Source: Methanohalobium sp. (GTDB taxonomy: Archaea > Halobacteriota > Methanosarcinia > Methanosarcinales > Methanosarcinaceae). From it: a DNA stretch of 64,000 nucleotides. The position numbers and the translations under genes are program-made. Positions within the stretch are counted from its first letter, which is position 1; the number at the start of each line of letters is the position of its first letter. Location: NCBI RefSeq assembly GCF_018609725.1, contig NZ_JAHENT010000045.1:33049-97048 (forward strand). The letters run 5' to 3'. The notes under the pieces were generated by a model. That model did no database searches. It was not told where the DNA came from and was given only the letters and a program-made list of their open reading frames with translations. Of the stretch, positions 46,690 to 51,598 are shown piece by piece.

Positions 46690-47586
46690 TTATTTTAAGA
46701 TTTCTTTCAGGTAGAACTGGTGAGGTCCAAGGTCTCCACCGTAGTTTCCAGCACTGATTTTCTTAATTCCCGGTAATGTTACTGCCGCTTTGACACCTGT
46801 TTCTATGGCTTCACTGACAACATCAGTATCCAGTCCATTAATTACAATTTCGTACACAGCATTGACATCTTCAGGTATCATGCTGCTTTCTACTTTGTCT
46901 TTGATTGACGGGCAGTATTTTTCATTGGCAGTTGCTTTCAGGAATGTGTATTTGTTTGCACCGGGTTTGGAACCACTTGCAACTATACCACCAGGGAATG
47001 GTGTAATTGTTCCTTCTATTTTATTTATTGCTTCAACTGCTGATTGTGCTGCGTTAAGTGCAGACATCTGTGAATCTCCGAAGATGAAGAAATTACCACC
47101 CGCTACACCTTCAACTGCTCCTATGGACTCTTCTATAAGAAAATCACCTTCCATTATAGGTATGCTGTACATCTTTCTATCAAGTATCTGGGTTTCGGAT
47201 TCCATTCCATCCCCAAAGAACTTGAGTTTATAACCGGTGTCGAATTGTTTTTTAGCTTCAGGGAGACCATTAAAAACCGCTGTTGTGGGTGCAGTCAGAA
47301 CACATTGTCCAAGACGCTTGAGTACCTGATCTTCCAAGTCTTTATAACTGAAATTGCATATCTGGATATAATATCCTGGTCTGCCGTCAGGTGTTTCGTT
47401 CCAGTTTGCAAACCTCTCAATTCCTGCCTCTGCAGGACACATGATAACCGATGTCCCAAATCCTGTAGCTTCCTGTGCAGCAACCTTTGCCCAGTATTTA
47501 GTTGCGGCTGTTATCAATATTCTACTAACTTTTATAGGAAACGCTTCTGCGAATGTTTCTTCTACTTCTACTCCATTAACTTCCAT
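46690..47586 (-). CDS. ftr: Formylmethanofuran:tetrahydromethanopterin formyltransferase
   Basis: Transfers the formyl group between methanofuran and H4MPT (or H4SPT), second step of CO2 reduction and, run in reverse, part of methyl oxidation. The 298 residues match Ftr: EVEETFAEAFPIKVSRILITAATKYWAKVAAQEATGFGTSVIMCPAEAG, NETPDGRPGYYIQI, IEGTITPFPGGIVASGSKPG and the end GNYGGDLGPHQFYLKEIL. AAGGGGTG precedes the ATG. It is monocistronic between the traB-like gene and the copper ATPase. Confidence 0.97.
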   Translation of the reverse strand: MEVNGVEVEETFAEAFPIKVSRILITAATKYWAKVAAQEATGFGTSVIMCPAEAGIERFANWNETPDGRPGYYIQICNFSYKDLEDQVLKRLGQCVLTAPTTAVFNGLPEAKKQFDTGYKLKFFGDGMESETQILDRKMYSIPIMEGDFLIEESIGAVEGVAGGNFFIFGDSQMSALNAAQSAVEAINKIEGTITPFPGGIVASGSKPGANKYTFLKATANEKYCPSIKDKVESSMIPEDVNAVYEIVINGLDTDVVSEAIETGVKAAVTLPGIKKISAGNYGGDLGPHQFYLKEILK

Positions 47587-47687: not shown

Positions 47688-49676
47688 TCAAAAGTCAGGA
47701 TTTAAAGATAAAAATCTTGCATTTACTGCCACAATCACAGTGCTAAGCGACATAAGAATTGCGCCAGCAGCAGGAGACAGCAGAATTCCCTGATTGTATA
47801 ATATGCCTGCTGCAAGAGGGATTGCAACTGCGTTGTATCCTGTCGCCCAGAAAAGGTTCTGTATCATTTTTTTGTACGTAGCTCTGGACAATCCCAATAT
47901 GGACACCGCATCCATTGGATTACTCTTTACAAGGATGATATCTGCGGTTTCAACGGCTACATCTGTACCTGCACCTATGGCAATTCCCACATCAGCCTGT
48001 GCAAGCGCAGGAGCATCATTAACACCGTCACCCGTCATGGCTACGATATATCCTCTGGACTGGATTTCCTTGACCTTTTTTGACTTGTCCTGTGGAAGTA
48101 CTTCAGAAAAATGTTCATCAAGACCTACTTCATTAGCCACCCAGCTGGCGACCTGTTCATTATCACCGGTGAGCATCATGCACCTGATACCCATACTTTT
48201 AATTTTTGAAACCGCTTCTTTTGATTCCGGTCTGATAATATCGGCAAGAGCTATCGCACCTGTTAATTCATCGTCCAGCAGGACATATACCACTGTTTTG
48301 CCCTGACTTCTCAATTTAGCTATATGTTTACTTTCAGGAATAGTTATACCGTTCTCATCCAGATATCCCGGGCTTACAACTTTAACATTTCTGCCTTCAA
48401 TTTTACCTTCAGCACCTTTACCTGGTATTGATTGGAAGTTTTCTACATAAAAATACTCATCAGATGATGATACTATACCTTTTGCTATCGGATGTTCAGA
48501 ATTGGATTCCAATGAAGCGGCGTATTTAAGAATCTGATTCTCATCCAAATCATTTGTAAAGGGTATTGTATCAGTAACTCCGAATTCACCCTTTGTAAGA
48601 GTTCCTGTTTTATCAAAAAGAATGGAATTGATGTTACGTGCATTTTCAAAGGCGGAACGGTCTCTTATTAATAATCCGTTTTTTGCACCAAGTGTGGATG
48701 AAATAGACACCACCAGTGGAATAGCAAGTCCCAGTGCATGAGGACAGGTTATCACCATTACAGTAACCGAACGTTCAAGTGAAAAAGCAAGGTCTGTGTT
48801 CATTACAATAATCCATAACGCGAAAGTTATAGCCCCTCCACTGAGTGCTATTATTGTCAGCCAGAGTGCAGCCTGGTTTGCAAGGTTTTGGGTTCTGGAT
48901 TTGCTTTCCTGGGCTTCCTGTACAAGGTTAATCAACTGTGAAAGGAAGGAATCTTCTCCTGTCTTTTTAACCTCTACTTTAAGTGAGGCTTCCCCGTTTA
49001 TAGAACCACCTATTACCTCATCACCTACACTTTTTGAAACGGGTCTGGACTCTCCAGTGAGCATGGATTCATCAAGAGAGGATTCACCTTCTACAATGTC
49101 TCCATCAGCAGGTATTTTTTCACCCGGTTTTACAAGTACTATATCTCCTTCCTGAATCTCTGTTAATGATACATCTTCCACACCACCATCTGATTTGACT
49201 CTGTGAGCTTCAGAAGGCATAAGTTTAACCAGTTCTTCCATTGAACGGGATGCACTGAGAACAGATTTCATTTCAATCCAGTGACCCAGAAGCATTACAT
49301 CTATAAGTGATGCCAGTTCCCAGAAAAAGAACTTACCTTCCAGTCCAAAAACCACTGCACTGCTGTAGGCATAGGCAACCGTTATAGCCACCGCTATCAG
49401 CGTCATCATCCCAGGCTCTTTTTTATTCAGTTCATCTGCTATTCCTTTTAAAAAAGGGTAACCACCGTAAAAGAACACCACAGTTGACAGAACAAAGAGC
49501 AGGTACTGGTCACCTGTAAACCCTATATTAATACCCAGAAATTGCTGGATTAAAGGAGATAACAAAAAAATGGGGATGGTAAGGATGGTAGAAATGATAA
49601 ACCTTTTTTTAAAATCCTCCATCATCATTGCATGATGGTTCTGATGAGCCCCATGATGCATCTTTTCATCATCCAT
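47688..49676 (-). CDS. copB: CopB-type heavy-metal (copper) translocating P-type ATPase
   Basis: A 662-residue P1B ATPase. The N-terminus is His/Met-rich ([14 protein letters not shown]) instead of a CxxC domain, and the intramembrane motif is [10 protein letters not shown], the CPH signature of the CopB (P1B-3) subgroup that exports copper or silver. It also has phosphorylation site [15 protein letters not shown] locus SEHPIAKG, hinge [10 protein letters not shown] and TM8 MSLSTVIVA. It starts 17 nt after the cooS-family gene, so the two are likely one transcript. Copper export would protect Fe-S enzymes. Confidence 0.94.
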
Positions 49677-49693: not shown

Positions 49694-51598
49694 TTAAATA
49701 CCAAGTTTTTTACGATTGTTTTCAATATGTTCAAGCATCGAATTTACAGCTTTTGTTGTATCTGTCTCTACATCTACCATTCCACCGGTTATATCCTTAC
49801 TCTCTTCTGTCAGGAGTTTAACAAGTCCTGGTGCTCCTGTAATAGTGGGTACAGGATTCACATGGGTGTATAAACCAAGAGCCACCGAATACATGGCATC
49901 AATTGTAGCTTTTTGTTCCATATATTCGGGAGCAGTGGCAACTACTGGAAGGTCAGGCATGGCTACATCACCAAGTGCTCCGGAAATTATACCCAGCAGG
50001 TCACCCAATCGTCCAGTATCCGTACATGTACCATAACTCAATACAGGCGGTATGTTCAATTTTTCACATAACTTTTTAAGTCCGAGACCTGCAAATTTTT
50101 GTGCATCTGTACTGCAGAGACCTCCTACTTGCATTGCTCCGTTACCACAGCCCATTGAAAGAACAAGCACATCATTTTTGATTAATTCTTTAGCAACATC
50201 TATACTGTGCATATCATGACCGTAATCTCTCAGTGTTGTACAGGATACAAGACCTGCAACTCCCCTGATAGTCCCATCCTTAATAGCATCCAGCAAGGGC
50301 TCAACACTTCCTCCAAGTGTATCTAAAATACTTTCTGTAGAAAAGCCTACTACTGCTTCATTCATCGGCAAATCGGTTATAGGCTTAGTATTTTCCCTGC
50401 GGTTTTTGAAGTTGTCAACTGCCATCTGTAAAAGCTGGTTAGCCTGGTTTTCAGCCTCTTCAGGAATATAATTAATACGTTCATTAATACCTTCAAATGA
50501 TACCAAATCACTTACCGGTACAAGTCTTACATTGTATTTTTCCGCATATTTTGGGTCTATTGGCATGGAACAGTTCATGTCGGATACAAACACATCAACA
50601 CTGCCAGTTGCAAGAACTGCTTCCTGCATAATCCAGTTACCAGTAAACCCATAGAATACATCATCCATGTCCCATCTCTGAATCATTTCCTGACCGGTTT
50701 CAATATTGGCAATGATTCTTAAACCTTTAGCACCAACTTCTTTTGCTTTATCCTGCCATTCTTGTTTTCTTGCCTGTTGTACCAGTGCAAATCCGAGGAA
50801 CGGTTCATGTCCGTTGGGCAAGACATTTACGTAATCAGGATCAAGAACGCCAAGGTCAACACGCATGTTGTGAGGTTTTGGAACACCATATATAACATCC
50901 TGACAGTATTCATTGACGATTTGGCTCTGATAAGCCATTGCAAGTCCGAGTTTCATCGCTTTAAAAGTAAGACTTTCATAATCTCCATCCACATTTGTAA
51001 GGCATGAACTGGTTGCCCTCATCATCTCACTGTGGATACCGTCAGGATATATTCCCAATATATCCCACGTATCCTGACGCTCTTTTGGGGAAAGTTTTTC
51101 CACTATCTTGCTGGGTTTTCCATATTCCCTGTTGAAATCGGACTCTACAAAATCACAGAGGTTAATTGCGATATCACTTGTTGAACCCGATGTATCAACA
51201 CCCAATCTTTCAGCAAATGTTTTCAGTTTCTCAGGTTCTTTAATTTCAAACGGTGTTTTACCCAGTGCCGTTGATCTTAATGTTTTGATTGTTTGTTCGG
51301 TATGATACTGATAGGTGGATGCCCCCATGACATTCCTTAACAACATCATCCGCATTGCCATTCCGTCTGCTGTTATCCCACAAACTCCTCTTTTATCCTT
51401 GGATGCGTCTGCACGGCACGGGCCATTTGAACATAGGTCACATCTTATTCCTTTCTGGCAGAATGGACATCTTCTATCAGGGTCTCCTCCCATCCCCTGT
51501 GCTTCATATCTGTCCCAGATATTGTCCATACCATCTTCTTTTATTCTGTTATATACTTTTAATACCGAATCATGATAAGAAATTCTGTCTTTTTCCAT
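49694..51598 (-). CDS. cooS: CooS-family protein with a changed C-cluster ligand (deviant CODH-like)
   Basis: A 634-residue member of the Ni,Fe carbon-monoxide dehydrogenase catalytic subunit family. D/B-cluster cysteines are in [18 protein letters not shown] (CxxC-type D-cluster) and GVCG. C-cluster equivalents remain in NGHEP (His), DMNC, LVSC, MGCGNG and GTC. However, where CODHs have GICCTGNE, this protein reads ANIETGQE, so the unique-iron Cys ligand becomes Glu300 and its neighbour Ile299. The His-rich proton path is also reduced (TYQYHTEQ). By comparison with CooS-V of Carboxydothermus it may carry an Fe-S-O hybrid cluster and lack CO activity. No cooF or cooC is adjacent; copB follows. 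Confidence 0.9.

Follow-up and report, generated by a model that had tools for sequence, protein, structure and literature searches.

We analysed a 64,000-nucleotide stretch of a methanogen genome (the window) and found that one of its genes encodes a protein that is probably (about 75%) an orthologue of CooS-V in structural group D-1. It would thus be a low-potential Fe-S-O hybrid-cluster reductase for nitrosative or oxidative stress, and not a CO dehydrogenase (CODH). The core of this claim was reported earlier for the group as a whole (PMC6344411; PMC9311411), to which the window protein is an added member; since it carries every testable sequence feature of D-1, both the active-site Glu and the inference 'not a CODH' were already in the literature (2019, 2022). 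New here are the gene-context data and a revised assignment for one of the 'cooS' genes linked to nar in Methanoperedens-like genomes. The features of the window are listed in Table 1.

Table 1. Coordinates of the D-1 gene, its active-site codons and the neighbouring genes in the window.
Feature	Position	Strand	Evidence
CooS-V-type (structural group D-1) gene, 634 aa	49694..51598	minus	TIGR01702, PF03063, PDB match 7b7q
N-terminal cluster motifs: bridging C44, C47; B-cluster C53, C56, C61, C73	51380..51469	minus	alignment
His264 = His259 of CooS-V, a hybrid-cluster ligand there	50807..50809	minus	alignment
Glu300, codon GAA, replaces the C-cluster Cys (Cys295 of CODH-II); = Glu295 of CooS-V	50699..50701	minus	alignment
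Cys343 = Cys338 of CooS-V; Asn342 = Asn337 just before	50570..50572	minus	alignment
Cys453 = Cys449 of CooS-V	50240..50242	minus	alignment
Cys484 = Cys480 of CooS-V	50147..50149	minus	alignment
Cys525 = Cys521 of CooS-V (forms a persulfide in CooS-V)	50024..50026	minus	alignment
Glu561 = Glu556 of CooS-V, counterpart of HCP Glu494; Ser/His in the compared CODHs	49916..49918	minus	alignment
CopB-type heavy-metal P-type ATPase, CPH motif, His-rich N-terminus	47688..49676	minus	TIGR01511, 629.8 bits
ftr, formylmethanofuran--tetrahydromethanopterin formyltransferase	46690..47586	minus	TIGR03119/NF002554

The gene and its genome

The open reading frame runs from ATG to TAA with no internal stops. 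It is intact, and its strand, absent from the original prediction, is minus. In profile searches the protein scored 743.9 bits against TIGR01702 (cut-off 478) and 473 bits against PF03063. As the equivalog score exceeds the cut-off, automatic annotation names the protein a CODH catalytic subunit.

The source genome belongs to the Methanosarcinaceae and comprises 2.09 Mb in 161 contigs. It also carries a CdhA-like gene on contig C132, and fragments of a further PF03063 gene lie at a contig end. The sister genome G103, the only other one of the genus, has a chromosome of 2,242,317 bases and carries a 97% identical copy. Between the two copies dN/dS was 0.094, counted with the in-frame TAG codon of the sister copy omitted. 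This TAG is codon 86 of the G103 gene (L088, G103:C1:1841650-1843551), where the window has TTG (Leu86), and may represent pyrrolysine, a recent nonsense change or a sequencing error. Both genomes encode a pyrrolysyl-tRNA synthetase, so the codon may be read through.

Active-site residues and group membership

We aligned the window protein with the CooS-V crystal sequence and three CODHs (6elq CODH-IV, 6t7j and 6b6v from D. vulgaris). The Cys pair in the CCTGNE motif of the three CODHs is replaced in IETGQE, and Glu300 aligns on the ligand Cys. The alignment, proposed earlier as a check, therefore places Glu and not Cys at the ligand position of the unique iron, within the ANIETGQE motif singled out by the original prediction. 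The remaining C-cluster ligands are conserved as claimed: His264 (NGHEP), Cys343 (DMNC), Cys453 (LVSC), Cys484 (MGCG) and Cys525 (GTC). The proposed reduction of the His proton path holds only in part, as the equivalent of His93 is Tyr96 but the next His (His99) is retained. Beyond these claims, Glu561, where the three CODHs have Ser or His, and Asn342, where they have Gln, are the CooS-V residues, and the subunit-bridging cluster motif Cys44-x2-Cys47 is CooS-V-like. The catalytic Lys is conserved as Lys563 (Lys558 in CooS-V). All hybrid-cluster residues of CooS-V are identical in the window protein, and these near-identical ligands strongly argue that it would hold a hybrid cluster. Every one of the 142 homologues sampled at about 50% identity or more has Glu at position 300, and the residue is invariant across a 67-sequence alignment, so its presence is not due to chance.

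Structural group D-1 was defined by Inoue's ligand row, including a Glu two residues before the Lys (PMC6344411). The window protein has every testable sequence feature of this group, the CooS-V subclade. It shares the H-E-C-C-C-C row, with Glu300 where CODHs have the first C-cluster Cys (Cys295) and the other ligands (H, C, C, C, C) in place, and the type III bridging cluster, recognised by the extra Cys at CooS-V position 41. It also shares Tyr96 in place of the acid-base His, Lys563, and Glu561 two residues upstream of this Lys. In a quick ML tree with some long branches it grouped with CooS-V, apart from the Cys-bearing CODHs (SH-aLRT 100). The difference from the published group lies in the partners, which are a COG1063 dehydrogenase and HypAB there and other genes here. 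By the same alignment, two features of an active Ni,Fe-CODH are missing, namely a Cys that binds the unique iron and the acid-base His93. Through the conserved CooS-V ligands, the protein also has the residue set of the hybrid cluster in hybrid cluster protein (HCP), with the HCP equivalence taken from PMC6344411.

Fold and closest structures

The best PDB sequence match was CooS-V (7b7q, 683.8 bits), with 396.6 bits for the best true CODH, and identity over the whole length was 50.6% to CooS-V versus 32-36% to the three CODHs. An AlphaFold2 model built from the 67-sequence alignment reached a pLDDT of 87.6 and a pTM of 0.91; the single-sequence model reached a pLDDT of only 35.8. The model, likewise a check named beforehand, has the CODH/CooS-V fold. 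Its top PDB matches were CooS-V entries (7b9a/7b7q, TM 0.95, 50% identity), and those to CODHs were lower (TM 0.90-0.92, 29-34% identity), a likeness that is one of fold and sequence.

With CooS-V of C. hydrogenoformans (PDB 7b7q, 7b7t, 7b95, 7b97 and 7b9a) the window protein shares the ligands, the Glu for Cys295, Glu556, Asn337, the C38/C41-type bridging cluster and the fold. It differs in that its gene probably forms a unit with just one other gene, for a CopB ATPase, and that its host is a methanogen also carrying HCP. The Ni,Fe-CODHs (CODH-II, CODH-IV and D. vulgaris CODH) are alike in fold, B-cluster motif, catalytic Lys and five of six C-cluster ligand positions, but the window protein lacks Cys295 and His93, and beside the cluster Gln is changed to Asn and Ser/His to Glu. 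With CooS-V as the closest structure by both sequence and fold, and with first- and second-shell residues shared, the comparison argues for the hybrid-cluster oxidoreductase that had been predicted.

Distribution

We fetched 80 loci whose proteins are 71-79% identical to the window protein. The archaeal hosts are Methanolobus, Methanomethylovorans, Asgard archaea, Bathyarchaeota, Thermoplasmata, Methanofastidiosum and ANME-1; the others are WOR-3, Chloroflexi, Actinomycetota and deltaproteobacterial MAGs. Within the window's order, 83 of the 186 sampled genomes carry a copy of at least about 50% identity. By parsimony on the quick ML tree one Cys/Glu change suffices, and the Glu of all 142 relatives derives from a single Cys-to-Glu change.

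Relation to HCP

The HCP profiles TIGR01703 and NF003658 gave no match to the window protein. The source genome encodes its own HCP on contig C23, which scored 766 bits against TIGR01703, and the role of the D-1 protein therefore need not equal that of HCP. Both belong to superfamily PF03063 and have equivalent hybrid-cluster residues, and related ferredoxins and small cupins lie beside some members of both; the window protein differs in its CODH-like length and architecture and in its low sequence similarity to HCP.

No TIGR01703 HCP was found in the 26 D-1 genomes examined by way of loci L022-L084, which lie outside the window's order except possibly a few; this may reflect replacement or plain lineage absence. 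In the window's own family, 40 genomes had both D-1 and HCP, 10 only D-1, 48 only HCP and 14 neither (Fisher p 0.82). Replacement of HCP by D-1 is thus unsupported in this family, where the two co-occur without exclusion.

HCP operons with the ferredoxin FrdX have been described (PMC1274295), and hcp and a neighbouring cupin are induced by NO (PMC5701242). Ferredoxins of the same family as those at D-1 loci (37-39% identity) lie beside hcp on a Roseburia plasmid (hcp - Crp/Fnr - ferredoxin) and in a relative (L169). A small cupin adjoins HCP in 16 of 30 HCP loci examined, and these cupins are only distantly similar to those of D-1 loci. On contig C23 of the source genome (L001, 3-1972), HCP (hydroxylamine reductase, 563 aa) is likewise followed by a small cupin.

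Gene neighbourhoods

The CopB-type ATPase begins 17 nt past the stop codon of the D-1 gene on the same strand, and the two genes are probably co-transcribed. In 13 loci from Methanohalobium, Methanolobus and Methanomethylovorans, a CopB homologue is the next same-strand gene, no more than 300 nt away. Among the loci compared, it is missing next to the D-1 gene in Methanosarcina, at several Methanolobus loci and at almost all others, which makes the pairing lineage-specific, and we rejected a copper link as the general function. The ftr gene lies near the D-1 gene in several relatives and often follows CopB where cooS and copB are paired. In the window's lineage neither an FrdX-like ferredoxin nor a cupin adjoins the D-1 gene; the CopB ATPase is found there.

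In other lineages, a ferredoxin-like protein (~260 aa, two [4Fe-4S] motifs, conserved C-terminal part) is encoded near the D-1 gene in 25 loci, in 14 of which the gene for this FrdX-like ferredoxin shares its strand and is at most 300 nt away. A Poisson estimate for this adjacency, which assumed gene and copy numbers and treated kin loci as independent, is only indicative. One ferredoxin search, across the class of a deltaproteobacterial genome and run without a positive control, gave no match. A small cupin is directly beside the D-1 gene in 8 loci. In Lokiarchaeota the D-1 gene has a divergently oriented rubredoxin reductase gene as neighbour and, in several loci, a flavodiiron protein within ~3.5 kb; at another locus (L226) rubrerythrin and a flavodiiron protein precede it. 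In three Methanoperedens-like loci (L220, L222 and L224) it occurs with a ferredoxin, an Lrp/AsnC-type regulator, a multihaem cytochrome and narG/narH-like genes. The pattern comes for the most part from uncultured archaea and candidate phyla, and this context of related genomes fits the role in nitrogen-oxide or redox stress that the original prediction had proposed.

Proposed function and alternatives

CooS-V has an Fe-S-O hybrid cluster without Ni and neither oxidises CO nor reduces CO2 (PMC9311411, Jeoung). It reduces hydroxylamine slowly, with a kcat of 0.13 per s and a kcat/KM far below that of HCPs, NO reductase activity was not detected, and it is probably a reductase at more negative potentials than HCP (PMC9311411). 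The original prediction had given the cluster, the missing CO oxidation and the slow hydroxylamine turnover correctly. Judging from the CooS-V structures, the site of the window protein would hold a [4Fe-3S-nO] hybrid cluster that is free of nickel and becomes open to substrate on reduction; its electrons would arrive by way of the [2Fe-2S] cluster between the subunits and the [4Fe-4S] B cluster. The protein may then act as a reductase of low potential and clear small oxidised N or O species such as NO, hydroxylamine, peroxide or similar; gene context and the channel gating of CooS-V give this proposal moderate support. As the context in related genomes suggests, it would be fed by ferredoxin and work alongside the separate HCP of the same genome. 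The very low hydroxylamine activity and undetected NO reduction of CooS-V (PMC9311411) count against this reading, as does the lack of a ferredoxin or cupin gene next to the D-1 gene in the window's own lineage.

It is very unlikely that the protein is a functional Ni,Fe-CODH with Glu300 standing in for the Cys that binds the unique iron. The appeal of this reading comes from the conserved fold, ligand positions and catalytic Lys, from the TIGR01702 name, and from a passage of PMC6344411 citing M. acetivorans genetics (Rother 2007), which hints that D-1 CODHs may join in CO oxidation. However, CooS-V has the same residues and lacks both Ni and CO activity, and the C295E and C295A variants of CODH-II are Ni-deficient and CO-inactive (PMC9311411). 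His93 is also replaced by Tyr96, and Glu561 and Asn342 are hybrid-cluster residues. Knockout of the D-1 gene cooS2 in C. autoethanogenum had little effect on CO (PMC4895105), and the cooS of A. fulgidus, placed in clade D by PMC13056359, showed no major CO role (PMC4543118). We therefore find a strong case that the window protein would be without CO chemistry; the earlier objection to the CODH label is upheld by the shared CooS-V residues, even though TIGR01702 would still give that name. It is also hardly credible that the gene is in decay and without a function today, as the TAG in the closely similar G103 gene might suggest, given the low dN/dS, the intact ligands, the wide conservation and the possible read-through.

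The hybrid cluster could instead serve mainly in a redox or NO sensor or a regulatory protein and not in a bulk reductase. CooS-V turns over very slowly and its cluster rearranges under redox control (PMC9311411), which would suit such a role, regulatory or redox-sensing functions have been proposed for clade D (PMC13056359), and the AsnC/Lrp-type regulator adjoins the D-1 gene in Methanoperedens-like genomes. We consider this unlikely all the same, as no signalling domain or partner is evident and the recurrent partners are electron carriers and reductases. A specific role in copper or metal stress of methylotrophic methanogens, as partner of the CopB-type ATPase, is quite improbable: the short gap, shared strand and 13 paired loci speak for it, but the pairing is lineage-specific and we know of no copper chemistry of hybrid clusters. 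Within our preferred reading of a stress reductase, the probable co-transcription with a copper-type exporter suggests use of the protein, in the window's lineage, under stress that damages Fe-S proteins, and there a copper link is weakly indicated.

Wider meaning

We tentatively suggest, with some doubt, that D-1 may be a second, convergent hybrid-cluster system that shares accessories with HCP (FrdX-like ferredoxin, small cupin), has flavodiiron and nar neighbours, acts as a stress reductase and includes one nar 'cooS' of Methanoperedens-like genomes. If this is true, many Asgard, WOR-3, Chloroflexi and methanogenic lineages would have D-1 as their reductase against nitrosative and oxidative stress, and of the two nar-cluster 'cooS' genes in Methanoperedens-like genomes one would encode this reductase and not a CO oxidiser. 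The group is widespread, both in the order and across many uncultured phyla, and since TIGR01702 confers the CODH name, surveys of CO metabolism count proteins that are very probably unable to oxidise CO. A survey of clade D in 2026 found no clear neighbour pattern (PMC13056359); the pattern found here supplies testable partners and conditions.

Further observations at related loci

In the narGH-like cluster of L220 and L222 (family f5, G044 and G071), two cooS-like genes lie a few kb apart, one of the Glu type (a predicted non-CODH) and one of the Cys type with Glu556/Asn337, and a DUF2114 protein is encoded inside the cluster. At L224 only a Glu-type cooS was seen by the nar genes. The nar cluster of BLZ2 has two cooS copies with narGH (PMC13079737), and from the matching gene content the Methanoperedens-like genomes described here likely correspond to it. 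Two Methanoperedens-like genomes of family f5 carry a sister type (L125 and L126) of 41% identity, with Cys295 together with Glu556 and Asn337. This type looks like an evolutionary intermediate, its deep placement being uncertain from long branches. At Methanosarcina-type loci (L129, L137, L138 and L151-L160), one to three paralogues of ~420 aa are encoded upstream of the D-1 gene on the opposite strand; by eye, they look LarA/DUF2088-like.
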